Below are positions 49,104 to 64,000 of a stretch of 64,000 nucleotides of DNA, in pieces; the stretch's first letter is position 1, and each line of letters opens with the position of its first letter. Origin of the DNA: Basidiobolus meristosporus CBS 931.73 (Eukaryota > Basidiobolomycota > Basidiobolomycetes > Basidiobolales > Basidiobolaceae). A program made the position numbers and the translations under genes. The notes beneath the pieces are model-generated. The model saw nothing but the letters and a program-made list of their open reading frames with translations, was not told the DNA's origin and made no database searches. The DNA lies in assembly GCA_002104905.1 (NCBI GenBank), contig MCFE01000175.1, forward strand, positions 78,765-142,764, written 5' to 3'.

Positions 49104-51010
49104 AAGAAAAGTGGGAAGTAGTTGGTCAAAGAAGGCAAAATAAGGAAGACAAAAAGGTAAAGAAATGGTCAAGTGGAATCAATGCGATTTGTTTATATTA
49201 ATATTAAGGACTCTTTCACAATCCTGGTAGACTGGTCGGAAGAATTGATTCACAGTATTCTACCCTCTGGGTGGAATGTTAGGAATCCATTTTTAAGACA
49301 GCATTGATTTAGGATAAATAAGCGGCCATAAGCCATGGCAGCGTACAATTCAATTGGGATGCAATTATGTACATTGCACAAGCTCCAATCATGTCCTAAT
49401 TTCCTCAATATTCCCGACGATTTATATATATGGATGGCAGCATCCTATTCAGCAGGATCCATTGTCATCAGCGACATCCAATGGGCGGTGCAAGCGGGTG
49501 ATCGCAATTCTGTTTAGAATGGTCTCGAGAGTGTCTGATGTCAGTGATATCATTGCATTATGTGAATCCCATGCATGAGATGAATGTTGCACATATTAGC
49601 TGCGCAGCTGATTCGCTCTGCGTGAAAGTGAGGGTAGATCAACGAGCACATTCAAACTCGCGTACATATGGAAACGGGTTTGCGGTCCAACTATATCGAG
49701 AAATAAGATTTTCAGGGCCAATCAAGCGCAGCCCTTGGGTTACACCGCCTGCTTCAATGATGAGATCCACTAGAGCATTATCTCGCAAATGCCTTCGAAT
49801 CACGGTGGCACTGTGATTACCAGTTGGCCTTTCCCCAGGACGACGCTGGGTTTGGTGCGGCATGTAGCAGGGCTGCTTTAGGAAGCCCCATTGTCTGAAT
49901 TCCATCCTTGCCGGCGATGGAAGGGAAGCTCCGGGGGCCATTCCGTGTGCGGGATAGGCCGGCCAACCTGCCGGGGCATGCATGGACAACAAAGAAACCC
50001 AAGTCTTCATACTCTGGAGCAGATGCGATACAGGCGCAGCCGAGCTTTGCTGAATGCTGCGCTGCAAAGCCCAGGGATGGGCAAAGGGTAGCTGGAGGTG
50101 GCCCTGAAGGGCAGCAGTATGTAGCGTGGCTCCGATTGTTCCAGGCCCCACTCTTGCGAAGTCCCTGTTGAAACAAACCATGGCATCGTCACAGCAACAA
50201 CATCCAGTTCGTCACTAGATACATCCTATTGGAGCCGAGAACGATTCCTGTTGGATAAGATCATATAGCAAATATAGCCAGATCTGACATTTGGCTTAAT
50301 GGAAATGAAATTAAATGGCATTGTGTAACACAGAATCACACATGCTACATTTGTGCCAACCCGCTAATCTAATCGCATTCTAGAGGTGAGTAGATTGGCC
50401 GTGTTGGCAGGAGGTGAAGTGGAATTGCACCACTTGCGCCGCCCCGGCTTATGAAGCCCGGCATCTCTCAGCACCAAGCCTTGTGAGCACGCTCGAGGTG
50501 CAGTATGGATGGAGTCTTGGAGCTGCCAGGCTGGGTAAAATGAAGTAGCCGCCCCTTTGATCTCGCCGGAGGAGCGCAGCGCAGTATTGCTCTACAGCGG
50601 GCCCATCTGTTGGCCCCCAATTCCCAGACCCTACAACCAAGCTGGTGGTGGGCCATCGATATTGGTCTGTTGGTGGACATGGGATGGGCGTGGACGATTT
50701 CCATGTATTGATGGATCACATGTGTACATCGCTAGTGGGTCCCTGAATGGACTTGGGGTCGGTATGTTCGGGGATCAGAAATGATCAACAGAGCGTCATA
50801 GAAGTTGATGACGGACTACCGATTTTGGTTAAGAATGGTGAAGAGTACAGGACTGGGTGTGGGTACTAGTATCTAAGCAGCTGGCAAGCAGGAATAGCGC
50901 TGCCCGAGAACTCATCATTGGCTGCTATCTTCGATTCTGGATATTTCTCCATGGCCTCATCGTTACGCTTGCATGATTGTGTGCCACCAAATTATCACTG
51001 ATCTCAATGC
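49104..51010. other. No recognisable gene
   Basis: Mixed-composition sequence. The longest frame is minus 50,181-49,639 (180 codons from an ATG, Pro/His/Arg-rich, no domain), overlapped by frames on both strands; I do not consider it supported. No LTRs or transposon blocks recognised. It could hold untranslated regions or a fast-evolving gene. Confidence 0.4.
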
Positions 51011-51096
51011 TTAGGGTTAGGGTTGGGATGATCTTAGGGTTAGGTCACTTGTACTTCCTGCTTACACTTCCACGCCCAGAGGGTGGGTTAGGGTTT
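51011..51096 (+). promoter_or_regulatory. Interstitial telomere-like motifs
   Basis: TTAGGGTTAGGGTTGGG (51,011-51,027), TTAGGGTTAGG (about 51,034-51,045) and GGGTTAGGGTTT (about 51,084-51,096) occur 220-300 bases beyond the 3' end of eL13. TTAGGG-type 'telo boxes' are bound by Tbf1/TRF-like factors in many fungi. Could be regulatory or scars of repair. Confidence 0.45.
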
Positions 51097-51282
51097 GGTA
51101 AATGACCTTGATACAAGCAGGATCTGACCCATTAAACACAAGCCGTCCGTCTAACCCACTTAGCCCCATCCTGATGCTCCTCTCACACCAACTCTGACTT
51201 GGTGGTCTCTAAGCATGCTGCTCGACTGTTGCACACTACGTTTGGGCAGGGTGTATGTTACAACTCAACACATTTGAAAGTC

Positions 51283-51288
51283 ATTTAT
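51283..51288 (-). terminator. Poly(A) signal of eL13
   Basis: AATAAA on the minus strand, 24 bases after the stop codon of the ribosomal protein gene. Confidence 0.6.
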
Positions 51289-51311
51289 TGCTTAGTAACT
51301 TGAAAAGTGGC

Positions 51312-51944
51312 TCATTTCTTAACCTTTTGGGCTTCCTCTTCGGCCTTGAGCTTGGCACGCTTTTCACGAATACCACGGTAACGTTGCTCGGAGCGGACGT
51401 TACGAAGGGTGGCGTAGGCGGAAGCGGTCTTCTCCTCATCAGTAACCTTGCGGGCCTTCTCCTTCTTGATCACCTGGGTAACAGGCATGACGGGTCCGGA
51501 GATTTGCTTGGCCTCGGCGGTTTCGGCGGCCTCACTGTCACCCTTCTTGGGCTTGCCAGCCTTCTTGGGGAAGACAATGAGCTTGGCCTTGTAAGCCTTG
51601 AGACGTTGGACGTTCAAGTTGAGAGACTCCTCGGACTTGTTGCGACGACGGTGGTCGACGGAGATGCCGATGGTGAGAGCCTCCTTGCGTCTGATACCAG
51701 CGCTCTTGAGCTCCTCCAAGGTGAAACCCTTGCCGGCTCTGAGCTTGGTGTTGTATTTGATGGTGGGGCATCTGACGGCAGGTCTGAGAAGACCGTCGAC
51801 GGGGCGAGGGGCGATGCGGGCAGCCTTTTGGACACGATTGAGTCTTCTGCGCTTCTTGCGTCCGGCTTGATCGAACCAGGTCTTGACACGCAATTGCCAG
51901 TCCTTACGGAAGTGGTTGTTCGGCAACTGATTGTTGTGCTTCAT
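51312..51944 (-). CDS. RPL13: 60S ribosomal protein eL13
   Basis: 210 residues, matching the usual 200-211 of the family. Diagnostic blocks: [20 protein letters not shown] near the start, [83 protein letters not shown], and a basic C-terminus [16 protein letters not shown]. Single exon from ATG 51,944 to TGA 51,312. A CATAG just before the ATG might be the acceptor of a 5'-UTR intron. It is a structural component of the large cytosolic ribosomal subunit. Fully intact, CpG-rich, and clearly under selection despite its place between transposon blocks. Confidence 0.96.
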
Positions 51945-52467
51945 TTCCTATGAATGGAGAGTTAGGGACAAATGACCAACAGGGGATGGTGCAGCGATTG
52001 GATGGCTGGGCAGCGCAAAAAGGATACGGTTGTTTTAGAACAACAAGGACTTGAAGGAAAGAGAAGGAAACCAGTCGCCTCACGAAGACTTTTTTATAAA
52101 GGGATCTCAACAAATCCACGAGCCGCCATTTTCTATTGGTGTAGCGGATGGAAAATTTGCTCCTCCTCTGATGGCGCTGAGGCTGATGAGAAATTTTTTC
52201 CATTTTTTCCCGGGGGTTGGGCAGAGGGGCGCTGATGTGGGATTTCAACTCTCACTGACCCCGCCGGCGTGCGTTGTCGCTTCCCTGGTTGCGTTGGATG
52301 CCACTGGACGCCCACTCCGCTCTGATCCGCATTGACTACAGGTCTATACGACTCTGCTCTGCCTGGCCGACAGAGCTGGCGGCGGTGTGATGGACAATGG
52401 GTGGATTTCAGCTCCAGTGTTTATTAATGTTCATGTGATATGTGGTTGGTCAACGATGGCTACAGTA

Positions 52468-52869
52468 TTAGTGCTCTTGGATGCGAAGTCTGGTGTTGGC
52501 GTTGGCTTTGGTAACCTTGGCGTTCGGTTGCTGCGCACGCTCCACAATGGCAATGCGGCTCTTGGTGCTGGTATTGTGAGCAATCTCAGCAGCGTACGTG
52601 CGGTTCTGCATCAACGGGACCTCCGGCTCTCACACGTTGGAGACGACGAACTCCCTGAACCCGCTGGGCATGAGGTGACAGGTCTTTTGGTTGGAGTCGT
52701 ACCCGGTCTTGGGGATGGGGATTTGTCCCTTGAATCGGCGACGAACTCGATTCTCAATACCCTTGGGCTTTCTTCACGACTCTTTGGCAGTCTTGTAGCA
52801 GCCAGATTGGTGACGCTTGAAGGACTTGGTACGTTTTCTGACGGCCGCGACTCGGTTGGTGGGGGCCAT
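52468..52869 (-). pseudogene. RPL32: Ribosomal protein eL32 pseudogene, two nonsense codons
   Basis: Full-length (134 codons) and colinear with eL32, starting [36 protein letters not shown], the [20 protein letters not shown] block and RLRIQEH end are clear. In-frame stops replace residue 32 (KES*RKPKG, where Trp is conserved) and residue 76 (SNV*EPEV). Several otherwise conserved residues are changed (e.g. [15 protein letters not shown]). No indels and no introns. Either a retrocopy or a decayed native duplicate; a functional eL32 must exist elsewhere. A telomere-like motif lies about 280 bases upstream. Confidence 0.85.
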
Positions 52870-53147
52870 GGTCTATTTGGCATCGAACGATTTGCCGTTA
52901 GTACATCTCGTTCTAGGCTCTCTGCATGCAGTCTTTTCGCAGAGGGTGTCGAAGTTTCGGGGGCAGGATGGTTATCATGTGGATAGATTCGTGTGCAACG
53001 CGATATGGATTCAAATTCCCTTGCTCACCATTCCAAGCAATTCTCCGCAACGAGGGTGCTGGGGGGTGAATAATGTCTACTACTGGCTTTCCAGAAAATC
53101 ATCCATGACTCTGGATTTGGCGTATTACGAATTTGTGCAGTTCGTGC

Positions 53148-53172
53148 TTAGGGTTAGGGCTAGGGTTGATGT
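53148..53172 (+). promoter_or_regulatory. Telomere-like motif upstream of eL32 pseudogene
   Basis: TTAGGGTTAGGGCTAGGG, about 280 bases upstream of the eL32 start. In several fungi Tbf1/Rap1-type factors bind such boxes in ribosomal protein promoters; here only position supports that role. Confidence 0.4.
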
Positions 53173-54381
53173 GGCGAGCATTTGTTTACCGTCCAGCCCG
53201 TGAGCAAAGTTTTTAGCTGCTTCTGGGCGAAATATGGGGTTGTTGCCTAGTGAATTCGATGGTTGGTGCTTGTGCGGGTTTTCAATACTGGTGGTAGAGA
53301 CAAATGATCTCAAAGGTGAGGTGTCAACGCAGTAGGTCGATATGTTGTCTCCGTGAATCCCTTAATATCTTGATCACGAATCTGTGCAAGCACCATTTCG
53401 GTTGCTAGTGTTTACTAGCCAGCTTTGCACAATAATGGCTGATGGTTTAGCGCGGTACTGCCGACATACTTTAACCCTCTGCTCACCAATCCATTGGAAT
53501 CTTCCTGTGACAAACCCCCATGTTTCTTATTTACTCCAACCAACATTACGTCAGTAGTTCGAAATATACCCTGCTGGGATTTTTTGGAGGGCATCATCCA
53601 TATCAATTGGGAGCAATCCAATTTGTATCGAGCTTTAGGCTTTCAAAAAATCATGGTGAGGGACAAAACGCTATCTTGATGCTATTCGCAACGCCTAGGT
53701 CTTCGAAGATCATGGCCATGCGCAAATTATGGATCCTAATCACTAGTGTTTGTACGGGTTGTGAGCTGTGCACATCTTCGGATGATAGTGGTGGGATGTT
53801 TATGAGCGCGTAGTGAACAGGTGGGGAGATCAGCAAAAAATCCATCAGAGTCAAGTGTGGAAATTTTTGGGATGGGTTTGTGAAGATGCTGAACAACCAG
53901 ATATCTGACCTCATCAAAATCGAACAGTAGCCTTATCACGTAGTCCATACACATACTAGCCAATTGTGCATGGTAATAGCATGGTACAGATCGATGAACG
54001 CTAACCTACCAGTTAAATTGGAATTTCTATTACGAAGTGATCTCCGCATATTATTTGGGTACTGAAGGATCAGAGAACTCATTTCCACATATACTATCCA
54101 TCATAGTATAGTTGCTGGCATCATTTCTCTAGGTTTTCAGATCAAAGCAGCATCTTCGTTATTTGCGTTGAGCAATCACTAAGCCAGGGAGTATAATGTA
54201 TGCCGGATTTGTTTTGCACAACATTGGCTAGACTAAACATGCCAGATTGTACCAGGTGGTTACATACGCTTCTCACAGCTCACTAGGATCTTCTGGGCAC
54301 CTAACTGATACAGGCACACAATTCCACTACAAGTGCAGATGCTATGTTACTGTTGCAAATAGTGCGTATAGGACCTAATCA
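53173..54381. other. No recognisable gene
   Basis: Moderate-GC sequence with only short overlapping frames and no familiar motif on either strand. Confidence 0.4.
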
Positions 54382-60190: not shown

Positions 60191-60631
60191 GGGGGGGGGA
60201 GACAGTCACCAACAGGTGAAATCTTTATTTCAGTTGAAACAAAGAAGCCAGCGCTACTGTTGTAGCTTTGATACAAGAGTGTGTAGCTGAGGGGAATCTG
60301 TAGATAAGTTAATAAGAAGTGATGATAGTCCTTCAGTGCTCAAGACACTGTTCAGTGGGATGGGGGGTAGCAAGAGGGGTAAGAATGATTTGTGAGCAAC
60401 ATTAATGAGGGGAATATGATCAGGATTCATGTTCATCCTAAAGTGAGTGTGCTGCTTCACATATTGCTGCCAAAGGTCTGTCAAGTACTTCAGGTAGGCC
60501 AGCTTGGGTTTTTCTGACTGCATAATATAGTGAGCAAACTTCTTGACTTCAGGATCTCCAAGTATAGTTCTCCAGTAGGATCCAGGTGTAGTGTGGTGTG
60601 TTCTCTTCCAGGCCTTGATCATGTTGTAAAA
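60191..60631 (-). mobile_element. Telomere-type element T1: 3' end with distinct ORF
   Basis: The minus-strand frame ending at 60,254 gives about 125 residues before it runs into LTR sequence (FYNMIKAWKRTHHTTPGSYW, EVKKFAHYIMQSEKPKLAYL, PLLLPPIPLNSVLSTEGLSS). It is basic and helical; I do not recognise it, but position suggests the end of the main (possibly reverse-transcriptase) ORF. The 3' UTR holds GCTGGCTTCTTTG, AAATAAAGATTTCACC and a stem-loop, shared with the elements at 62.3 and 63.6 kb, and ends in a C-run (sense). Truncated at the 5' side by a Copia LTR piece. Confidence 0.55.
60206..60219 (-). repeat. 3'-terminal stem-loop of T1
   Basis: TCACC-AACA-GGTGA: five-base stem, four-base loop. 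The same stem with a six-base loop recurs at 62,339-62,354 and about 63,593-63,608. Confidence 0.6.
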
Positions 60632-60762
60632 TCTTGTAATCCCACCTAAATATTCACCTAACTTAGCCACTTAGATCATTACCTTCAAATCCTAGAGAAT
60701 ACTGACCAAATTCCTTGTCGGGATTTACTTAGAATATTTTCACCAAGATACTGGGTACCCAG
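60632..60762 (+). mobile_element. Copia LTR fragment, opposite orientation
   Basis: Sense-strand LTR start (TGTTGTAAAATCTTGTAATC ... CTGGGTACCCAG) joined tail to head to the next LTR at 60,763, a sign of rearrangement between LTRs. Confidence 0.7.
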
Positions 60763-61111
60763 TGTTGTAAGAGTCTTGGAGATATTGGAAGTAATTTGGA
60801 GAACAAGTAGATTATGTGGTTTTCACTTAATGATTTATTGAATGTAAAAGTGGTATTTATACTTTTACCTGGTCTTGGCATTACAAACATGTAGAATAGG
60901 TTAAGAAAGGTCCCAAGAACATGTGTGCAAAGTTTGGGGCTGTTTGGACAACTTTGAGAATTTTCATGTTCTGGGTACCTGGTATTTTGGTGAAAATATT
61001 CTAAGTAAATCCCAACAAGGAATTTGGTCAGTATTCTCTAGGATTTGAAGGTGATGATCTAAGTGACTAGGTTAGGTGAGTATTTAGGTGGAAATACAAA
61101 ATTTTACAACA
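60763..61111 (-). mobile_element. Copia-6 3' LTR (reference copy)
   Basis: 349 bases, TGTTGTAAGAGTCTTGG ... ATTTTACAACA. Followed on the minus-strand element side by the RNase H coding end; best-preserved LTR of the family. Confidence 0.85.
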
Positions 61112-62310
61112 CTCCCACTCAGCTAAATGTTCATACTGACTAGTCCTAATTTTGACCTAAGATATTCAAACTTGTCTCTAGCTAATGGTTTGGTAAATAT
61201 GTCTGCAATCATTTCATCTGTAGAACAGTAAACTAAGCTAGCTAAGTTATTCTCTATAGCTTCACGTATGAAATGATGTCTAATATCTATGTGCTTGGTT
61301 CTAGCATGAAAAGTTGGATTTCTACCTAGTTGTATACATCCTTGATTATCTTGAAATAAAGTAATAGGCGTTTTTTTGACATAGGCCTAAATCTGCAAAG
61401 AGCTTTCTTAACCACATTGCTTCTTTTGTAGCTTCACAGGCTGCCATATACTCTGTCTCTGTAGTAGAAAGTGCTACGGTTGGTTGCTTTCTTGAATTCC
61501 ATGAAATGGCTCCTTTACAGTAAAGAAAGGTGTATCCTGTGGTGGATCTTCTGTCTTCTATATTTCGTCCCCAATCAGCATCAGAGTATCCCACAAGATC
61601 CTGTTCTGAATCCTTATAAGTGTATCTTAAGCAGATATCAGCAGTTCCTTTTAGGTATCTAAAAATCCGCTTAACTGCTGCAATATGATCAGATCCATAA
61701 TTCTGATTATGTTGGCTGACAACTCCCACTGAATATGAGATACCTGGATGTGTTCCAAGCATAATATACATCAGTCTGCTGACCCTAGATTGATAAGGAA
61801 AGTCAGGGCTTTCAGATGGCACCAAGCTCTCTTGATTTGGTTGAGTTTTGACAAAGTTAAGGTTTGTCTCCATTGGGGTAGCTGCCGGTTTACAGTCTTC
61901 CATTTGGTACTTCTTTAGTATATCTTGAATATACTTGGATTGGCTTAGGGTGATAGTCTGGGTACTTCTGTCTATGGAGAACTTAATCCCTAAGTAGTAA
62001 CTGAGTTCTCCTAGATCGGACATCTTAAACTCCTTAGATAGGCTGGATTTAGTCTCTTCCAATGTTTCTAGGTTATTGGCGGCTATAATAAGATCATCCA
62101 CATATAGAGCTAATAGAACTGGATTTGCTCTATCTGGCTTATAGTATATACTATAGTCAGCATTACTCCTTTTGAAACTCAAAGATTCCAAATATGAATC
62201 TATCTTGCAATTCCAGGCTCTTGGTGATTGTTTGAGACCATATAGTGACTTTTTAAGCTTGCAGACCAAATGGGGGTTATCTTGGTCAACAAACCCATCA
62301 GGCTGGTCCA
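61112..62310 (-). pseudogene. Copia-6 reverse transcriptase and RNase H, cut at telomere repeats
   Basis: 321 codons are open (62,311-61,346): DQPDGFVDQDNPHLVCKLKK, LYGLKQSPRAW, LLALYVDDLIIAANN (YVDD intact), LGELSYYLGIKFSIDRSTQT, KPAATPMETNLNFVKTQPNQ, VKRIFRYLKGTADICLRYTY, GYSDADWGRNIEDRRSTTGY (RNase H Asp), ALSTTETEYMAACEATKEAM. A one-base slip in an A-run (sense strand) at about 61,372-61,378 then shifts the frame; RNase H continues with FHARTKHIDIRHHFI and DIFTKPLARDK to the LTR. The best-preserved Copia polymerase here. Its 5' side ends abruptly at TTAGGG repeats, so gag, integrase and half of RT are lost. Confidence 0.88.
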
Positions 62311-62311
62311 C

Positions 62312-62329
62312 TTAGGGTTAGGGTTAGGG
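62312..62329 (+). repeat. Internal telomere tract, three TTAGGG repeats
   Basis: TTAGGG x3 at the exact end of the Copia-6 homology and the start of the telomere-type element. Interpreted as an earlier chromosome end. Confidence 0.95.
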
Positions 62330-62338
62330 GAGGGAAAG

Positions 62339-62354
62339 TCACCAAGGTAGGTGA
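62339..62354 (-). repeat. 3'-terminal stem-loop of copy A
   Basis: TCACC-AAGGTA-GGTGA on plus. Same five-base stem as in T1 with a different loop; lies eight to ten bases from the telomere junction. Confidence 0.6.
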
Positions 62355-62452
62355 AATCTTTATTTGATTACAGACAAGTCTAACTACAAATAAAGAAGCC
62401 AGCTGGGAATAGAAGATTCCCAAAGTAAACACTAAGTTGAATATGAATAAAT

Positions 62453-63181
62453 CTAAGCTAAAGTTAAGGCAGTATCCCAGAGTACACTGGAGTTCAGGTT
62501 CATGGGGGAGTGAAGTAGATAAGCTTGAGAGATATAATAATCTTTAAGGAAGTGGGTAACAGCAGGTGAAGGGGAGTTTTTGATAAGTGAAGTGAATCTT
62601 GAGAGCAGAGATTCCTCTAATGAGAAGGTCTTGTAAACTGGAGAATCAGGAAACTCTTTAAAGGCATGGTTAGTAGGTTCCCAGTAAAACTGGTCAGAGA
62701 CATTTTGAGAGAATTGTGTAGCAATACTTTTGTCAAGTACTACCTCCAGAGTGTGATTGTTGATAAATCTCATGTTAACAATCTTGGATAAATTATAACC
62801 TCGTTGCTTGAGATACATCCTATGCTCAGATATAGGAATAAACTCCACATTGGCAAAGTAGCAGACAGCCCAGTCAGTAGCAGGAGGCAAATCAGAAGTA
62901 GCAGGAAACTTTCTTTTAGTCTTGGGAGGAGCAGCAGGATGTCTTGAGGAAGCAGGTACAGGCTTTTTGACAGCTTCAGAGTAGGAAGAGTGAGCAGGAG
63001 CAGATGATTCTTGGGGAGTCTTGTTGACAGGAACAGCTGGCAGAGAGACAATAGATTCTTGCAGATCAGAGAAGGCAGAAAACAGCTTTTGAACTTGTTT
63101 CTTGAGTAAAGCATTTTCAGCTTCAACAAGTGCAAGCCTTTCCTCAAGGAAGGAAATCTGAAGGGAATGGAGTGAAGGCAT
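62453..63181 (-). CDS. Coiled-coil protein of telomere-type element, unknown function
   Basis: 242 residues from ATG 63,181 (MPSLHSLQISFLEERLALVE) to TAG/TAA-type stop at 62,453. The frame is open further upstream, but that part is the repeat zone without ATG. Residues about 8-45 form a leucine-zipper-like coiled coil (LEERLALVEAENALLKKQVQ). About 55-105 is a Pro/Ser/Lys-rich linker with KPVPASSRHPAAPPKTKRKF. 108-242 looks folded (TDWAVCYFANVEFIPISEHR, KIVNMRFINNHTLEVVLDKS). Coiled coil, then basic linker, then folded domain, is how many LINE ORF1 proteins are built, so an ORF1-like RNA-binding role is inferred. The frame is undamaged, unlike nearly all other element genes here. Confidence 0.6.
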   Translation of the reverse strand: MPSLHSLQISFLEERLALVEAENALLKKQVQKLFSAFSDLQESIVSLPAVPVNKTPQESSAPAHSSYSEAVKKPVPASSRHPAAPPKTKRKFPATSDLPPATDWAVCYFANVEFIPISEHRMYLKQRGYNLSKIVNMRFINNHTLEVVLDKSIATQFSQNVSDQFYWEPTNHAFKEFPDSPVYKTFSLEESLLSRFTSLIKNSPSPAVTHFLKDYYISQAYLLHSPMNLNSSVLWDTALTLA

Positions 63182-63223
63182 AAGAAATAAGAAGAAGAGG
63201 GTGAGATGGGGTGGGTGGGAGGG

Positions 63224-63557
63224 AAAATTAGCAGGGAGAAGAGAAGGAAGGAGCAAAAATTCCAGAAGTCAGAATTTATAGATGGATGGACAAGGGTAGA
63301 TGGATGGATTATTCCTGGGTTAGGAAAATTAGCAGGGAGAAGAGAAGGAAGGAGCAAAAATTCCAGAAGTCAGAATTTATAGATGGATGGACAAGGGTAG
63401 ATGGATGGATTATTCCTGGGTTAGGAAAATTAGCAGGGAGAAGAGAAGGAAGGAGCAAAAATTCCAGAAGTCAGAATTTATAGATGGATGGACAAGGGTA
63501 GATGGATGGATTATTCCTGGGTTAGGAAAATTAGCAGGGAGAAGAGAAGGAAGGAGC
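63224..63557. repeat. 101-bp tandem repeat, 3.3 copies
   Basis: Units start AAAATTAGCAGGGAGAAG at 63,224, 63,325, 63,426 and 63,527 (partial), essentially identical. Each unit holds GATGGATGGACAAGGGTAGA and the telomere-like CCTGGGTTAGG. They lie in the 5' part of copy A (sense minus). Confidence 0.95.
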
Positions 63558-63560
63558 AGG

Positions 63561-63582
63561 GGGGAGACAGGGTTAGGGGGGG
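63561..63582 (+). repeat. Junction of variant telomere-like sequence
   Basis: GGGGGGAGACAGGGTTAGGG plus further G. The GGGGGGAGACAG part also adjoins the 3' end of T1 at 60,193-60,204. It separates copy A from copy B. Confidence 0.6.
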
Positions 63583-63748
63583 AGGGAAAGTCACCAAGGT
63601 AGGTGAAATCTTTATTTGATTGCAGACAAGTCTAACTACAAATAAAGAAGCCAGCTGGGAATAGAAGATTCCCAAAGTAAACACTAAGTTGAATATGAAT
63701 AAATCTAAGCTAAAGTTAAAGCAGTATCCCAGAGTACACTGGAGTTCA
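63583..63748 (-). mobile_element. Telomere-targeting element, copy B, 5'-truncated
   Basis: About 165 bases identical to the 3' end of copy A except for two substitutions (ATTGCAGAC for ATTACAGAC; TTAAAGCAG for TTAAGGCAG). It includes the stem-loop (about 63,593-63,608). It breaks at GGAGTTCAGG and runs straight into the terminal TTAGGG array. Confidence 0.75.
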
Positions 63749-64000
63749 GGGTTAGGGTTAGGGTTAGGGTTAGGGTTAGGGTTAGGGTTAGGGTTAGGGT
63801 TAGGGTTAGGGTTAGGGTTAGGGTTAGGGTTAGGGTTAGGGTTAGGGTTAGGGTTAGGGTTAGGGTTAGGGTTAGGGTTAGGGTTAGGGTTAGGGTTAGG
63901 GTTAGGGTTAGGGTTAGGGTTAGGTTAGGGTTAGGGTTAGGGTTAGGGTTAGGGTTAGGGTTAGGGTTAGGGTTAGGGTTAGGGTTAGGGTTAGGGTTAG
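63749..64000 (+). repeat. Terminal telomere array (TTAGGG)n
   Basis: About 42 repeats to the window edge with one TTAGG variant near 63,921. G-rich strand reads outward, so this is the right chromosome end. Long Gly-Leu frames read through it are artefacts. Confidence 0.98.

Follow-up and report, generated by a model that had tools for sequence, protein, structure and literature searches.

The window, meaning the whole stretch of 64,000 bases analysed here, ends with a 142,764-base Basidiobolus contig (C397:142764) from an assembly of 89 Mb in 1,311 contigs. Reading outward, an interstitial (TTAGGG)3 on the plus strand (62312–62329) lies between a copia fragment and element A, a 1.23-kb ORF1-only non-LTR retroelement on the minus strand whose 3' end points inward and whose 5' end points outward (copy 1, 62330–63558). 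A plus-strand joint follows (63559–63578), made of 12 bases identical with the 3' terminus of family B and a short telomeric stretch, then a second minus-strand copy of A, 5'-truncated about 170 bases from its own 3' end (about 63579–63750), and finally the terminal plus-strand TTAGGG array, which runs to the contig end (63748–64000). This confirms at 62312–64000 the order given in the initial annotation, that is (TTAGGG)3, a 1.23-kb unit on the CCCTAA strand, a G-rich joint, a truncated copy and a TTAGGG array. The two differences it counted between the copies were found as well, within 172 bases (98.8% identity). Copy 1 contains, all on the minus strand, a 3' tail of two hairpins (62339–62396; stem 2 at 62339–62354, stem 1 at 62357–62396), an ORF1 of 242 residues (62453–63181) and a 5' region consisting of a perfect 101-bp tandem repeat present 3.3 times (63222–63558).

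The G-rich junction starts at 63559–63570 with GGGGGGAGACAG, which equals 60194–60205, where the RT-encoding family B has its 3' end; judged by this identity, the 12-base stub may be what is left of a B copy after extreme truncation. A longer 5'-truncated copy of B occupies 60191–60622 on the minus strand, with its 3' tail from 60191 and the RT domain absent. Positions 60257–60622 encode the C-terminal 122 residues of ORF2, which match B ORF2 at 87% identity and are closed by a stop codon at 60254–60256. The reverse transcriptase had been placed outside the window; this holds for the RT domain of A's relatives, but a truncated piece of an RT-encoding family does lie inside. The Ty1-copia RT/RNaseH fragment (61346–62311, minus strand; RVT_2, E = 7e-42) is broken off at 62311, where TTAGGG begins, and its cut edge probably marks a former truncated chromosome end. 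A 141-bp inverted repeat (92%; 60622–60762 and 60971–61111) begins at the end of the truncated B copy and perhaps consists of copia LTR pieces. Ribosomal protein genes were seen on the minus strand at about 51000–53200, RPL13 (about 51–52 kb) and, by reading, an RPL32-like sequence, in a region that otherwise reads largely as decayed transposon ORFs. RPL13 identifies the host as Basidiobolus: it shares 95–97% identity with three proteins of B. meristosporus CBS 931.73 and 89–93% with six of B. ranarum, and the next match is at 78%.

Element A recurs at dozens of contig ends with its 5' side outward and its 3' tail inward, so that the polarity noted for the window extends to other ends. It encodes ORF1 only. 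The dN/dS of this ORF is 0.29, indicating purifying selection, and 31 of 31 copies are stop-free, in a sample of best DNA matches that is biased to intact copies. The predicted order of the protein is a coiled coil, a disordered linker, an RRM-like domain and a helical C-terminus, and it shares 35% identity over 142 residues with ORF1 of B. Other A copies terminate inside the 101-bp repeat at the joint GAGAAGG/GTTAGGG. A second ORF1-only element, E, carries a 103-bp repeat. The telomere-like sequence GGGTTAGG occurs inside the 101-bp repeat of A (63222–63558) and the 103-bp repeat of E (L073:6819–7152).

Longer relatives at other contig ends, where the initial annotation had recommended looking, do encode a reverse transcriptase together with an endonuclease, and there too the identical 3' tail adjoins TTAGGG. 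Family B (L033, L072) has an ORF1 followed by an ORF2 that encodes both an endonuclease and an RT (RVT_1, E = 2e-25; Exo_endo_phos_2, E = 3e-4, under the Pfam cut-off). Family D (L032, L073) is laid out in the same way, its ORF2 being 47% identical to that of B (RVT_1, E = 1e-20). The RT is of the LINE type, LINE-1 ORF2p being named in four of the five best solved-structure matches. N-terminal to it lies an APE-type endonuclease, recognized by the weak Pfam match in B and by motif columns; PF14529 was recorded for the relative P0009. When the genome was searched with B ORF2, 49 of 1,398 candidates were scored, the query's own place included; these are 98–100% identical over 929–930 residues. 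TAG appears in 48 of the 49, and in five of these that were fetched it is the stop after residue 922; one copy has a second TAG and two have an additional TAA. Six fetched copies show 99.6% identity and a pN/pS of 0.20. Searching the protein database with B ORF2 gave five close relatives (48–80%), situated on contigs of 3.9–5.7 kb; all other matches are at 23–39% identity, the nearest named ones being RTs at 24–39%, one of them called jockey. By reading, ORF1 of D (L073:3263–4753) and of B (L072:3929–4432) starts with a four-cysteine zinc-ribbon-like motif that is missing from A and E.

B, D and their relatives retain the endonuclease motifs N, Y, GD-N and SDH. Where a glutamate (ET) is usual, the residue is D (LCLIDV/LLIDV) in all 6 B copies compared, in L073 of family D and in the relatives P0005 and P0007. 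We take the glutamate at this position of an APE-type endonuclease to bind metal; since it reads D in the B/D endonuclease, nick-free priming becomes plausible on sequence grounds, which is short of proof, as the D might still serve. The zinc motif of a restriction-like endonuclease behind the RT was absent from all five ORF2 proteins checked. A third RT lineage, C (L032:492–3421, minus strand; L029 near 2625), has APE-like and RT ORFs and retains E at the position in question (FLAETW). Its RT is 29% identical to that of B, and it has another 3' tail, which stands beside TTAGGG at one joint. All 19 measured copies lie at most 19 kb from the contig end they face; 12 of these are 92–100% and 7 are 56–60% identical to the query, and four sit on contigs of less than 30 kb.

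Elements A, B, D and E and a further, SINE-like element, S, end in ...AAATAAAGATTTCACC(n)GGTGA... with small variants, followed by a C-run, and we refer to them as a guild. The exact tail pattern occurs 1,539 times genome-wide (1,412 + 127), against 0 for the reversed control; 216 tails are of the A type and 423 of the S type. Folding 20 distinct tails singly gave one two-hairpin layout, with an internal loop in stem 1 of S; this set took in A, D, E and S, the tails of B lying outside the pattern used. In a 12-row alignment that includes B, 97.2% of cells are paired and six cells are changed on both sides, pair column 14/36 being seen as GC, AU, CG and UG. The covariation score and the number of two-sided cells beat 500 of 500 shuffles and all slides, while two of the five measures stayed within the range of the shuffles, at 407/500 for pairs with two-sided change and 114/500 for further pair types. 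Ten of the 15 pairs are invariant and a single pair holds all two-sided changes, so the covariation backing for the tail structure is real but narrow.

Ten distinct copies of S, picked by both ends, measure 521–524 bp, and their longest stop-free stretch is at most 74 codons. Each of them carries the Pol III boxes of a SINE, an A-box-like site at position 12 and a perfect B box at position 55; a perfect B box arose in 11 of 20,000 shuffles. The head of S was not recognized as a tRNA, with no Rfam match up to E 1 in L027, L073, L032 and L033 and no ARAGORN hit at five loci, and we therefore withhold the label "tRNA-derived".

Positions were taken from 100 listed of the 1,539 tails; the other scans scored 40 of 486 and 150 of 555 candidates. 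On 11 contigs longer than 100 kb, 38 tails all lie 0.4–22.2 kb from the end faced by their 5' side, where uniform placement would put 12% within 25 kb; the contigs of the remaining 62 do not exceed about 20 kb, which makes these tails little informative. All of 45 hand-picked A units lie at most 11.6 kb from the faced end. For B ORF2, 45 of 46 copies with known contig extent are within 8 kb of the faced end; two further copies, on C971 and C291, agree with this when reckoned by hand, and the distances do not include C309. The exception, C726:56456–59245, faces inward about 10 kb from the right end and has an extra stop; it is perhaps an inverted or internalised relic. The initial annotation had named a mostly non-telomeric location of the copies as an outcome that would count against it. 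We found the opposite: where contigs measure 40 kb or more, all 33 A units are within 15 kb of the faced end (15% expected) and, for B ORF2, 38 of 39 copies are within 25 kb of it. Seen from the telomeres, 19 contigs that have a TTAGGG array were taken in list order. In 15 of them a guild element stands no more than about 1.5 kb from the array, and the other four (C35, C58, C81, C114) have none nearby; the first-found array is interstitial in at least C35, C95 and C110. The telomere pattern itself occurs 326 times forward and 4 times in reverse, so that the assembly seems to orient contigs with the telomere to the right, and strand counts alone are neither to be taken for biology nor independent evidence. 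As a control, the 66 copia candidates scored out of 10,358 divide 33:33 between the strands. Five of them have a known contig extent and a start beyond 25 kb; four of these are 41–83 kb from any end and one is at an end.

We then compared the joints between elements and telomeric repeats. The set comprised 86 distinct 3' joints. Five or more telomeric bases adjoin the inner side directly in 78 of them, against 6.2% of 2,038 other G-runs, and the remaining 8 tails have fewer than 5. The register at the 3' joint is TTAGGG/G, and the G-run counts 4–10 (two have 2), a variation as slippage on the C-run would give. Apart from the C726 copy and these 8 joints, the elements thus stand in one polarity beside telomeric repeats, as is characteristic of telomere-specific elements. 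The telomeric tract between elements has a median of 8 bases and reaches at least 24 in 2 of 86 cases, compared with a median of 213.5 for 20 terminal arrays. Elements are therefore rarely found behind a long telomere, which means either that they attach to eroded ends or that longer inner tracts are lost by breakage. The 3' end is constant and the 5' ends are truncated, at points that differ among ends and are joined directly to TTAGGG. At 48 truncated 5' joints (B, D, S) a mean of 1.48 bases is common with TTAGGG, against 0.78 in simulation, and 12 of the 48 share at least 3 bases (6.1% simulated), a surplus that repeat addition at matching ends, by telomerase or in a repair step, would give. 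The TERT RNA-binding domain was found in the genome as two neighbouring matches, which score 40.5 and 34.7 bits against a cut-off of 25; one of the two runs across a stop.

It is very likely, in our judgement, that the end of the window is a stack of telomere-targeted non-LTR retroelements in which A is an ORF1-only guild member that borrows its RT. The copies examined lie at ends in one polarity, are joined by their tails in one register, are truncated on TTAGGG and have conserved ORFs; the guild elements presumably reached the ends by transposition. Tail sharing is what suggests that A, E and S use the RT of B or D in trans. The telomere-targeting non-LTR lineage in an early-diverging fungus that had been postulated from this window is supported by the tail and the RT-encoding relatives that Basidiobolus ends carry, and is refined in that A would be an ORF1-only derivative that must borrow its RT. 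A Y'-type subtelomeric block, named beforehand as the counter-reading if the sequence had no RT-encoding relative, was rejected on account of the RT relatives, the 5' truncations and the structured common tail.

Broadly, the guild falls among the telomere-specific LINEs whose endonuclease domain is of the APE type. The endonuclease of SART/TRAS is likewise of the APE type, and in HAL1-type LINE derivatives ORF1 is kept and ORF2 lost. A resembles the latter in being ORF1-only and differs in being telomere-associated with an ORF1 under selection. SART/TRAS of Bombyx are described as having two ORFs, ORF2 with EN and RT, and as inserted in telomeric repeats, and MoTeR1 is given as the fungal example in a 2023 survey (PMC10088271). 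The silkworm elements at telomeres have been reported to be full length, whereas Basidiobolus copies are often 5'-truncated, and the guild, unlike SART/TRAS, adds ORF1-only and SINE-like elements. Accounts of MoTeR/FoTeR describe fungal telomeric LINEs in TTAGGG with 5' ends outward and a restriction-like endonuclease behind the RT, and MoTeR2 as a short partner with the same 3' end, much like the short members in Basidiobolus (PMC12857005, PMC8381367, PMC7367193). The 5' repeats of A and E recall the telomere-like 5' repeats of MoTeR, FoTeR having 5' VNTRs, and the interstitial tracts that are stable in MoTeR are short as they are in Basidiobolus (PMC7367193). In contrast to MoTeR/FoTeR, the Basidiobolus elements have an APE-type domain before the RT.

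The Drosophila elements are found at ends only and in tandem, HeT-A encoding a Gag-like protein only and TART/TAHRE Gag and RT (PMC3776773). In this division of labour A (and E) would correspond to HeT-A and B and D to TART/TAHRE, an ORF1-only element standing beside ORF1+RT elements at chromosome ends in Basidiobolus as well. The tails differ, C-runs beside GGG in Basidiobolus and an oligo(A) tract in HeT-A/TART-type LINEs (PMC3776773), as do the presence of a SINE-like member and that of a TERT domain and TTAGGG arrays in a host that has thus not lost telomerase and short repeats. The kinship with SART and MoTeR suggested initially therefore stands for the class of telomere-targeted non-LTR elements, but the closest functional parallel is the HeT-A/TART pair, not a single SART- or MoTeR-like element. 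Within the open-access literature, with long result lists covered partly and subscription papers outside this scope, we noticed no report of a telomeric retroelement in Basidiobolus and no APE-type telomeric LINE in fungi.

As to mechanism, the likeliest course is reverse transcription of a C-ending RNA tail from the GGG-3' end of a telomere, with RT provided in trans and a final cap from telomerase. ORF2 of B or D would bind the common tail on the RNA of any guild member; A's ORF1 protein presumably packages or targets A RNA. The telomeric ...TTAGGG 3' end would pair with the terminal C-run of the RNA and prime the first strand outward, with synthesis halting at the RNA 5' end or sooner. The 3' end of the cDNA would then be the new chromosome 3' end, to which telomerase would add TTAGGG, and repeated rounds would pile the elements head to tail. 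More tentatively, we put forward a wider reading in which eroded ends are also extended by this HeT-A-like guild despite telomerase. The shared tail and C-run would serve autonomous LINEs, two ORF1-only elements and a SINE as ticket, and the TTAGGG-3' end would prime without a nick, the endonuclease having lost its catalytic glutamate, before telomerase caps the product.

Coming close to an even chance is endonuclease-driven insertion into full-length telomeres in the manner of SART or MoTeR, with short tracts as survivors of breakage and healing; the elements would still be telomere-targeted LINEs and the priming alone would differ. The endonuclease domain is kept in B, D and relatives with N, Y, GD-N and SDH, the insertion register is fixed, and in Magnaporthe, according to PMC7367193, tracts of at least 3 repeats break and stable ones have at most 2. 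Against this, the usual glutamate reads D in all B/D-clade sequences that reach the position, and almost no telomere adjoins 8 of the 86 tails. The tract lengths given above (median 8 and 2 of 86 of at least 24, against 213.5 at the termini) reject uniform insertion alone and are compatible with insertion followed by filtering. We consider it unlikely that exchange among ends, by recombination or break-induced replication as in Y', is now the main way in which the stacks spread from a few old insertions. Many copies are 95–100% identical, their arrangement offers homology for exchange, and Magnaporthe arrays expand by such a route (PMC7367193), but the 5' truncation points vary by end with direct TTAGGG joints, the tail is common to five bodies of which one is non-coding, the ORFs are under purifying selection, and different inner sequences adjoin the copies on different contigs. 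That the position is an assembly effect of repeats breaking contigs is highly improbable, since, for all the fragmentation (1,311 contigs for 89 Mb) and the non-random 326:4 orientation, the high-copy copia is 33:33 in strand with 4 of 5 distance-checked copies 41–83 kb from ends, and nearness to the faced end, TTAGGG joints and guild elements at 15 of 19 arrays are impossible from contig breaking.

The guild points to a Drosophila-like division of labour, Gag-only elements with RT donors, in a fungus that retains telomerase, and a SINE-like element that appears aimed at telomeres is added to the picture. Because TERT coexists with many young end-directed copies, one could test directly in Basidiobolus how chromosome ends come to be served or exploited by retroelements, and whether a natural end can take the place of a nick for a LINE.

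Other sequences were also seen to begin directly at TTAGGG: TGTAGGTGTTATAGTAAGG... at three loci (L005:2726, L013:1315 and L019:3085) and TTCTAGTGCTTTATTGG... at one (L004:3755). They are possibly further telomere-associated families.
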